Assembly: GCF_028279465.1 (NCBI RefSeq)
Contig: NZ_JANQNS010000013.1
Coordinates: 62,001 to 126,000, forward strand
Source: Parasphingopyxis sp.
GTDB taxonomy: Bacteria; Pseudomonadota; Alphaproteobacteria; Sphingomonadales; Sphingomonadaceae
Direction: 5' to 3'
DNA length: 64,000 bases
Every line of letters starts with the position of its first letter. Position 1 is the first letter of the stretch. The notes below the pieces were generated by a model. It searched no databases, was not told the DNA's origin, and saw nothing but the letters and a program-made list of their open reading frames with translations. Shown one piece after another: positions 54,199 to 55,222 of the stretch. The position numbers were made by a program, and so were the translations under genes.

Positions 54199-54804
54199 CT
54201 ACAGGTCGAGCGGACCGCTCGACAGGATTTCCAGATTGCGATCGTCGAGCGATTGACCGTCAAGCGCTGTGTCGCGCTCGCGGACCAGCTCGGCAATCTG
54301 ATCGCGAAACGTCGCCACTGCAGCCGTCAGCCAGCCATTGACCAGTGGATCGCCCGGCGCGTCGTCGACGTCGAAAAGGTCGAGGCGCTCGATAATCGCT
54401 TCGCCCGGCATGAAATATTCGTTGGTCACCCAGCGATTGGTCGTGAACCAATGGGTCGGGATACCTTGCGTGTTGCAGGATAGCGCAACGAAGTGGACGA
54501 CCTTGGCCGGCGTCTTGTCTTTGGTCTTCGGTTTGGCTTCCGCGAGCGGTTCGATACCGTCAAAGGCGTCGAGCGGCAGGAACAGGTGAAAATGGCCATG
54601 CTCGCCCGGTTCGCGCTGCTCCGGCGGGTGCGCGTGATAGAACCAGCGCGATTTGTTCGACGGGCTGACCGCGTCTTTTTCGGGATAATGGTCCCATTGC
54701 CGGAAATCGCAATCCGGCGGCACGACACGCGGAACGAGCGGCGTCCCCTGCGACGCCATTTGCTCGGTCAGAGCAAATAGCGTCGCCTCGGGACTTTCGC
54801 TCAA
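54199..54804 (-). CDS. Hypothetical His-rich partner of the Cys-repeat lipoprotein
   Basis: About 201 residues from a proposed TTG at 54804 that overlaps the TGA of the upstream gene (TTGA). A TTG at 54816 or an ATG at 54759 are alternatives, and no start has an ideal Shine-Dalgarno. There is no signal peptide. A histidine cluster lies in RWFYHAHPPEQREPGEHGHF (about 54-73), then HLFLPLD, and VVHFVALSCNTQGIPTHWFT follows near 103-122. The motif pattern recalls DUF6969, but I am not certain of the assignment. A metal-dependent enzyme or chaperone acting on the Cys-rich peptide is an inference from coupling and His content. Confidence 0.75.
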   Translation of the reverse strand: MSESPEATLFALTEQMASQGTPLVPRVVPPDCDFRQWDHYPEKDAVSPSNKSRWFYHAHPPEQREPGEHGHFHLFLPLDAFDGIEPLAEAKPKTKDKTPAKVVHFVALSCNTQGIPTHWFTTNRWVTNEYFMPGEAIIERLDLFDVDDAPGDPLVNGWLTAAVATFRDQIAELVRERDTALDGQSLDDRNLEILSSGPLDL

Positions 54805-55100
54805 TAGGCTGCGCAACAGCCTTCCGCGGCGGCGCAGCAGCCCTCGGCCGATGCGGTTTCAGTCGCGGCGCAGCAGCCCTCGGCCGCAGCGGCGCAGCAT
54901 CCTTCGGCAGCTGCCGCACAGCATCCTTCAGCCGCACAACAGCCTTCCGCGGCACAGCATCCGCCGGTCGCATCGCCCGCGGCAGCCGCGCAGCAGCGCG
55001 CCCCGCAGCTACAAGCTTGCAGCGCCGGAGCGGCGAGCGCGAGGCCGCCGGCGACGGCCAGCATCGATGCGAGGCTTCGTTTTTCGGTCTTATCGGTCAT
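54801..55100 (-). CDS. Secreted lipoprotein with Cys-Cys (EGCCAA) repeats
   Basis: 99 residues; GGGAG lies seven bases before the ATG. Residues 1-29 form a signal peptide ending LQA before Cys30 (lipobox LQAC). The remaining 70 residues are nearly all Ala, Cys, Gly and Glu. They hold a CSC pair, one RCC, one GGCC and six EGCC units spaced by Ala-rich linkers, giving 18 cysteines, and end GCCAAY. The repeat resembles the EGKC units of bufferins (copper-binding modified peptides) and also metallothioneins, but matches neither. A likely role is binding thiophilic metals in the periplasm or outer membrane. It is preceded by a GTAACC-N16-CGAA element. Confidence 0.85.
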   Translation of the reverse strand: MTDKTEKRSLASMLAVAGGLALAAPALQACSCGARCCAAAAGDATGGCCAAEGCCAAEGCCAAAAEGCCAAAAEGCCAATETASAEGCCAAAEGCCAAY

Positions 55101-55133: not shown

Positions 55134-55159
55134 TTCGAAGCCAAATCGCAGCCGGTTAC
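55134..55159 (-). promoter_or_regulatory. ECF (SigF-type) promoter for the Cys-repeat gene
   Basis: The minus strand carries GTAACC, exactly 16 bases, then CGAA, ending 34 nt before the ATG. This is the pattern I recall for promoters of the Caulobacter ECF factor SigF, which responds to heavy metals and oxidants and drives bufferin operons. No sigma factor gene is in the window. Confidence 0.65.
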
Positions 55160-55222
55160 ATACGCTGCGAAATTCGATACCGGGCCCTCGGGATGCACGG
55201 TCTCAGGTCCGCGGGTTTCGGC

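Follow-up and report, generated by a model that had tools for sequence, protein, structure and literature searches.

An exported cysteine-repeat protein paired with DUF6969 under a predicted sigma-F-type promoter in Parasphingopyxis sp.

Bufferins (Buf1/DUF2282, Buf2 and Buf_EGKCG/oxazolin) are small exported Cys-motif proteins, encoded together with an MNIO (PF05114, DUF692) and a DUF2063 partner (PMC12452194, PMC3511200). They are MNIO-modified RiPPs, marked by thiooxazole heterocycles derived from Cys and by the chelation of copper. The sigma-F site of Caulobacter is GTAACC-N16-CGAA (Kohler et al. 2012, PMC3511200), and its sigma-F regulon under chromate or cadmium consists of a sulfite oxidase subunit and two DUF2282-DUF692-DUF2063(-DoxX) operons (PMC3511200); a definition given later (PMC12452194) makes these two bufferin operons. 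Caulobacter sigma-F responds to chromium and cadmium, not to peroxide, paraquat or diamide, and the sensitivity to Cr/Cd was not increased in Caulobacter lacking sigF or the MNIO genes (PMC3511200). The locus described here resembles a bufferin operon in its export leader, its predicted promoter and the presence of a dedicated partner gene, which here belongs to the Pfam family DUF6969.

The Cys-repeat gene and its DUF6969 partner

The window, i.e. the whole stretch of DNA that was analysed, comprises 64,000 nucleotides of Parasphingopyxis sp. (assembly GCF_028279465.1, contig NZ_JANQNS010000013.1). The locus contains the following features:

54199..54816, minus strand: DUF6969 (PF22308) gene, 205 aa, TTG start (E 1.1e-58)
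54801..55100, minus strand: Cys-repeat protein gene, 99 aa, ATG start, with orthologues in 5 sister genomes
54804..55013, minus strand: mature part with the Cys repeats, for which disorder is predicted (pLDDT about 45)
55014..55100, minus strand: predicted export leader MTDKTEKRSLASMLAVAGGLALAAPALQA, about residues 1-29, from hydrophobicity and conservation in relatives
55134..55160, minus strand: putative promoter of the sigma-F type (TGTAACC-N16-CGAA), 33 bases upstream of the ATG of the Cys gene, from sequence evidence

The Cys-repeat protein (99 aa; MTDKTEKRSLASMLAVAGGLALAAPALQACSCGARCCAAAAGDATGGCCAAEGCCAAEGCCAAAAEGCCAAAAEGCCAATETASAEGCCAAAEGCCAAY) has 18 Cys, with eight CC pairs, one CSC and six EGCC units; the position of the ORF and the counts of these motifs, repeated here, agree with those of the initial annotation. 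More than 3 CC pairs were found in no other window ORF of at least 50 aa, and when the residues of the protein were shuffled, 0.2% of the trials reached at least 8 CC pairs. The nearest orthologue retains all 18 Cys and differs from the window gene by 45 synonymous and 7 non-synonymous codons (4/2/51 differences at codon positions 1/2/3). Judged from these substitutions, the ORF is under clear protein-level selection and is a real gene. Orthologues within the genus range from 83 to 108 aa and from 11 to 20 Cys, so that the number of repeats varies. The initial annotation had named the lack of repeat-bearing homologues, or conservation of the signal peptide alone, as what would speak against its proposal; homologues with variable repeat number are present throughout the Sphingomonadales, and both their leader and their Cys are conserved. 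At the DNA level the repeat is modest (TRF: 24-bp and 18-bp units, about 3 copies, 81% match) and the EGCC units show mixed codon usage, which argues against a fresh slippage artefact. The predicted structure of the protein is disordered and gives no information. A second copy of the gene was rejected, the sole hit being a chance one (30% identity, 3 stops), and a scan for sigma-70 promoters and intrinsic terminators found none. Directly upstream of the Cys gene is a GTA-type holin gene (PF11351; 55223-55642), as also at L025, L026 and four more loci, and the holin loci of the relatives contain a lysozyme-like gene as well; this arrangement, found in several Sphingomonadales, is probably incidental synteny.

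The Cys-repeat protein starts with a hydrophobic Sec-type leader (ASMLAVAGGLALAAPALQA) which, judged from sequence, is strongly conserved. Among ten Erythrobacter-type genomes the pairwise identity of this leader is 84%, compared with 38% for the control, an orthologous lipoprotein leader from a nearby gene at these loci of the ten genomes. Conservation to this extent suggests a reader besides Sec, and DUF6969 would be the natural candidate for recognising the leader. The lipoprotein signal proposed in the initial annotation held up as an export leader, but its lipobox is not conserved across the family. The window protein has LQAC, whose Q at -2 is non-canonical with respect to [LVI][ASTVI][GAS]C, and the leaders of its relatives end in LSAC, TAAC or LAGC or are without a lipobox, being either lipobox-like or signal-peptidase-I-like. 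Given these mixed ends, the protein may or may not be lipidated.

The next gene downstream, which was missed in the initial annotation, overlaps the Cys gene by 16 bases. Its product matches the PF22308 (DUF6969) HMM with 198.6 bits, compared with a gathering cut-off of 27; no function is given for this family in Pfam. About 20 residues are invariant in an alignment of 48 diverse members (H43, Y44, P45, D48, Y60, H61, H63, E72, H73, G74, H75, F76, H77, H108, G118, F124, N127, W129, V130, R181 and D182), seven of them His, a set that appears enzyme- or metal-site-like. The AlphaFold2 model shows a confident fold (pLDDT 94.9), in which H73, H75 and H77 alternate along one strand (72-81) and H61, H63, H108 and H43 are located on or beside other strands; in this model the His cluster looks like a metal site. 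By inspection DUF6969 has no signal peptide, and it is predicted to be cytoplasmic. Fold searches with Foldseek against the PDB (best E 1.1), with VIA-align (best Z 3.3) and against BFVD (viral; best E 0.1) gave nothing credible, and neither did a sequence search of the PDB; no match from these searches marks DUF6969 as an enzyme, and the absence of a fold match does not prove that the fold is new. A relationship to MNIO was rejected (probability 0.3% in HHalign against one MNIO sequence, and no PF05114 hit in the Pfam scan), as was one to DUF2063 (probability 0.2% in HHalign against one DUF2063 protein).

Distribution of the gene pair and diversity of the repeats

Scanning the GTDB species genomes for DUF6969 identified at least 562 relatives. 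The family is present in 90 of the 385 sampled alphaproteobacterial genomes (about a quarter), and in 20 of the 398 genomes sampled across the phylum. Of the 79 best loci, 60 have a Cys-repeat tract no further than 1.5 kb from DUF6969. Beyond this distance only 4 tracts were found at the 79 loci (477 kb); these belong to three loci, which have, or adjoin, the same kind of linked Cys gene slightly further out. The linkage between Cys tract and DUF6969 has essentially no background. No tract was recognised by this criterion at the other 19 loci, some of which (L024, L025, L088) are threshold misses. Besides the Cys protein, no gene family is common to more than 17 of 80 DUF6969 loci, and the recurrent families are mostly lineage-specific.

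Within the genus DUF6969 is found in six of ten genomes, and the Cys protein is present in exactly these six and in none of the other four (p 0.005). At the family level, a leader-plus-repeat profile (E<1e-3) finds seven of the eight genomes with DUF6969 and none of the 28 without it (p 1e-6, by a statistic that ignores shared ancestry); a CAAC-type protein was found by eye in the eighth, G032. The repeat types beside DUF6969 include CCAA, CAAC, GCAAK, NPCAA/CNPCAAK, CGAC and KCAPK, and DUF6969 occurs twice in two genomes (L036/L037 and L039/L056), where the copies differ in the repeat class that accompanies them. The repeat classes group together on the tree of DUF6969, with 12 changes compared with 23.5 in shuffles, and the CC class appears on it at least twice independently.

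At L063 (Pontixanthobacter) DUF6969 has all the invariant His, while the neighbouring leader protein is rich in Arg, Ala and Glu and its Cys repeats are lost. Few Cys, and long Met-Asp/Glu repeats (EGDAM, ADDAM) instead, were found at L027:4890-5588 and L035:4652-4984; these repeats fit metal binding better than an obligatory Cys modification. At L020:987-1343 the leader and the GCKGCK repeats are in different frames, which suggests a frameshift or a sequencing error. In Rhodospirillales-type loci (L003:2286-3383, L065:2607-3833, L073, L078 and L093) CNPCAA-type repeats are located inside larger proteins: in L003 they are fused to a cytochrome P460 domain, and in L065 and L073 the repeat gene is divergent from an FGE/sulfatase-modifying-factor-like secreted protein and DUF6969. 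In Marinobacter (L080, L085, L089, L097, L098 and L099) the gene upstream of DUF6969 joins NPCA(T/A)K repeats to a cytochrome c domain of SoxA/TsdA-like type (tested with Pfam for L080); sigma-factor-like, zinc-finger anti-sigma-like, TVP38/FAD-oxidoreductase-like and radical-SAM-like genes are found nearby in several of the Marinobacter loci.

The upstream promoter and its predicted regulon

Aligning the upstream regions of the genus revealed a putative bufferin-type promoter in front of the Cys gene, which the initial annotation had missed. The motif, TGTAACC-N16-CGAA, is exact in five of the six genus members with DUF6969, and the sixth (L013) has CGTAACT-N16-CGAA, which differs in the first and the last base of the first box. 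The window genome contains 8 exact sigma-F sites compared with 0 for the reversed control pattern, and the genus as a whole 57 compared with 6 for the control. The sites of the window genome precede an ECF sigma factor with NrsF (sigF-nrsF), the Cys-DUF6969 operon, a DsbD-family protein, DUF1223, an ArsM-like methyltransferase, a divergent MerA-like FAD oxidoreductase, DM13 and a small membrane protein; the Cys-DUF6969 operon is predicted to be part of the sigma-F (heavy metal) regulon. The divergent ArsM-like gene, whose product ends in GCC, and the MerA-like gene (L171/L172; C16:230237-230305 of the same genome) share back-to-back sigma-F sites and may represent an arsenic/thiol branch of the sigma-F regulon, possibly an undescribed one.

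The sister genome G005, which does possess MNIO, has a sigma-F site preceding a complete Buf1-MNIO-DUF2063-DoxX operon (identified from ORFs) and another preceding its own Cys-DUF6969 operon, so that a single metal-stress regulon appears to contain both kinds of operon in parallel. Elsewhere, DUF6969 loci adjoin a sigma factor/NrsF (L068), DsbD with an ArsM-like gene (L092) and a bufferin operon (L088); at L088:2778-5000 the Buf1-like/MNIO/DUF2063 operon is located back to back with DUF6969, with sigma-F-like sites on both sides. Among the Sphingomonadales-type loci with a recognised Cys gene, a perfect site is found within 220 bases upstream in 8 of 41, compared with 0 of 346 control windows. 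The remaining Cys genes of this type, including many from Erythrobacter, have no sigma-F site, and these other lineages must therefore use other regulators. The presence of NrsF by itself does not follow that of DUF6969 across the family, since many genomes that lack DUF6969 have NrsF as well.

Proposed mechanism, alternatives and relation to known systems

We favour, with a probability of about 0.55, a metal-stress operon which encodes an exported Cys-repeat chelator and in which DUF6969 acts before export. The two genes would be expressed from the sigma-F-type promoter, and the Cys-repeat protein would be made in the cytoplasm with its strongly conserved export leader. DUF6969, being cytoplasmic, His-rich and dedicated, would act on this protein before it is exported, its most likely role being that of an enzyme that depends on metal and modifies the repeated Cys. 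The product would then pass via Sec to the periplasm, perhaps lipid-anchored, and chelate excess soft metal (copper, cadmium or similar). Genome comparison strongly supports the pairing and joint inheritance of the two genes, the conservation of the leader, the promoter with its predicted regulon and the independence from MNIO. We infer metal binding by the exported repeats from the predicted regulon and from the Met-Asp repeats that replace Cys in L027 and L035, Met being another soft-metal ligand, and a role of DUF6969 as enzyme rather than escort from its invariant His, Asp, Glu, Arg and Trp. A further-reaching proposal, which we put forward tentatively and hold at somewhat less than an even chance, is that DUF6969 founds a new RiPP maturase class, metal-dependent, Cys-modifying and without relation to MNIO, that acts on diverse exported Cys-repeat proteins, including the cytochrome fusions, and stands in for bufferins in the sigma-F regulon. 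The two readings offered by the initial annotation, a periplasmic metal sponge and the precursor of a peptide modified in a new way, both gain some support from the Sphingomonadales homologues and the predicted sigma-F regulon.

Alternatively, the repeats could form an unmodified thiol sponge, with DUF6969 as an escort in the cytoplasm, by which the thiols would be kept in a reduced or metal-free state up to the point of export. The spacing of the repeats is highly variable (CC, CxxC, Cx4C) and some members have Met-Asp for Cys, both of which are easier to understand under plain chelation than under a single Cys chemistry; they disfavour one obligatory chemistry and make an escort role possible, and DsbD and other redox genes within the predicted regulon would agree with it. 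The invariant His/Glu/Asp/Arg/Trp set of DUF6969, however, would be more usual at a catalytic or metal site, and the PDB fold searches found no escort-like fold; we consider an escort the less likely of the two. We give little credence to a redox or thiol role, by which the repeats would scavenge reactive oxygen, nitrogen or electrophiles, or carry persulfide, and DUF6969 would regenerate or load them. Such a role could be read from the relatives fused to cytochrome c or cytochrome P460 domains, and from the DsbD, the disulfide-reductase-family oxidoreductase and the DM13 protein of the predicted regulon, but it agrees poorly with the Cr/Cd response of Caulobacter sigma-F, which peroxide, paraquat and diamide do not elicit (PMC3511200), and DUF6969, in which inspection showed no signal peptide, would not be expected to come into contact with the protein after its export.

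The initial annotation was right that no MNIO is encoded next to the Cys gene, and none (PF05114) was found in the whole window genome, which is 99.99% complete. Among 80 genomes with DUF6969, MNIO is present in 41 and was not found in 39, which argues strongly that the Cys-DUF6969 system is independent of MNIO. It is very improbable that the protein is an MNIO-modified bufferin variant whose maturase is encoded elsewhere: the Sec-type leader, the EGxC-like units, the sigma-F promoter and the MNIO of those 41 genomes would fit, but MNIO is missing from the window genome and the other 39, DUF6969 shows no relation to the MNIO or DUF2063 sequence compared, and in G005 and L088 the MNIO adjoins its own Buf1-like precursor. 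For the window genome this explanation is close to refuted. That the ORF is spurious or mere low-complexity sequence, as its small size and the GC-rich, repetitive DNA might suggest, can practically be dismissed, being refuted by the strong synonymous bias and by the co-occurrence of its orthologues with DUF6969 in the genus, with the conserved Cys, the conserved promoter and the operon partner also speaking against it.

Regular Cys spacing is also a trait of the NCBIfam family NF038108 ('Cys-every-fifth RiPP peptide CefA'), for which the NPCAA relative L039 scores 33.7 (cut-off 30); the window protein has no match, and its identity as CefA was rejected. The CefA cut-off was exceeded in only 2 of 372 alphaproteobacterial genomes, neither of which had a DUF6969 match in the class search, so that CefA and the Cys repeats probably have only the period in common. 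Metallothioneins are cytosolic and have neither leader nor partner. The Cys-repeat protein is like them in being Cys-rich and of low complexity, with many adjacent Cys pairs, and unlike them in having an export leader and an obligate-looking partner. In the literature searched, which did not include many subscription papers, there was no mention of DUF6969, CNPCAA-type repeats or CefA, and no link of DUF6969 to exported Cys-repeat proteins or to a sigma-F promoter was found.

The Cys-DUF6969 pair is probably a widespread second bacterial route to a secreted metal sponge. An exported metal-buffering Cys peptide with a dedicated partner is a known theme, and there is a real chance that the partner represents a new maturase class. 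A Pfam family without assigned function, with at least 562 loci, is now joined to a definite substrate-like partner and a metal-stress promoter, so that its function can be put to a direct test. Should DUF6969 prove to modify Cys, it would represent a new class of RiPP maturase, for which nature offers many repeats as substrates; should it not, the pair would still be a second exported thiol system, independent of MNIO and under the bufferin promoter.

When compared with the known bufferin families by Pfam and NCBIfam profiles, and by motif for EGKCG, the Cys-repeat protein gave no match at E<=1, is not DUF2282 and has no EGKCG motif; in the place of a DUF2063 partner its neighbour is DUF6969. 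The resemblance to bufferins, noticed by the initial annotation in the EGxC unit, thus extends to regulation and anatomy but not to homology. As in bufferin operons, a small exported Cys-motif protein of variable repeat number with a Sec-type leader is encoded together with a dedicated cytoplasmic partner, under a predicted sigma-F promoter (GTAACC-N16-CGAA, with sigF-nrsF in the genome) and in a metal-stress context. RiPPs have a precursor gene next to a dedicated modifying enzyme; here the neighbour is a dedicated partner, which from its invariant residues may be an enzyme. Whereas the bufferin partners are MNIO (PF05114) and DUF2063 and the units EGKCG, here the partner is DUF6969, without detectable relation to either, and the units are EGCCAA, CAAC and NPCAA. 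From its sequence features, the Cys-DUF6969 system works like a bufferin in the logic of its export, promoter and partner, but it is not a bufferin.
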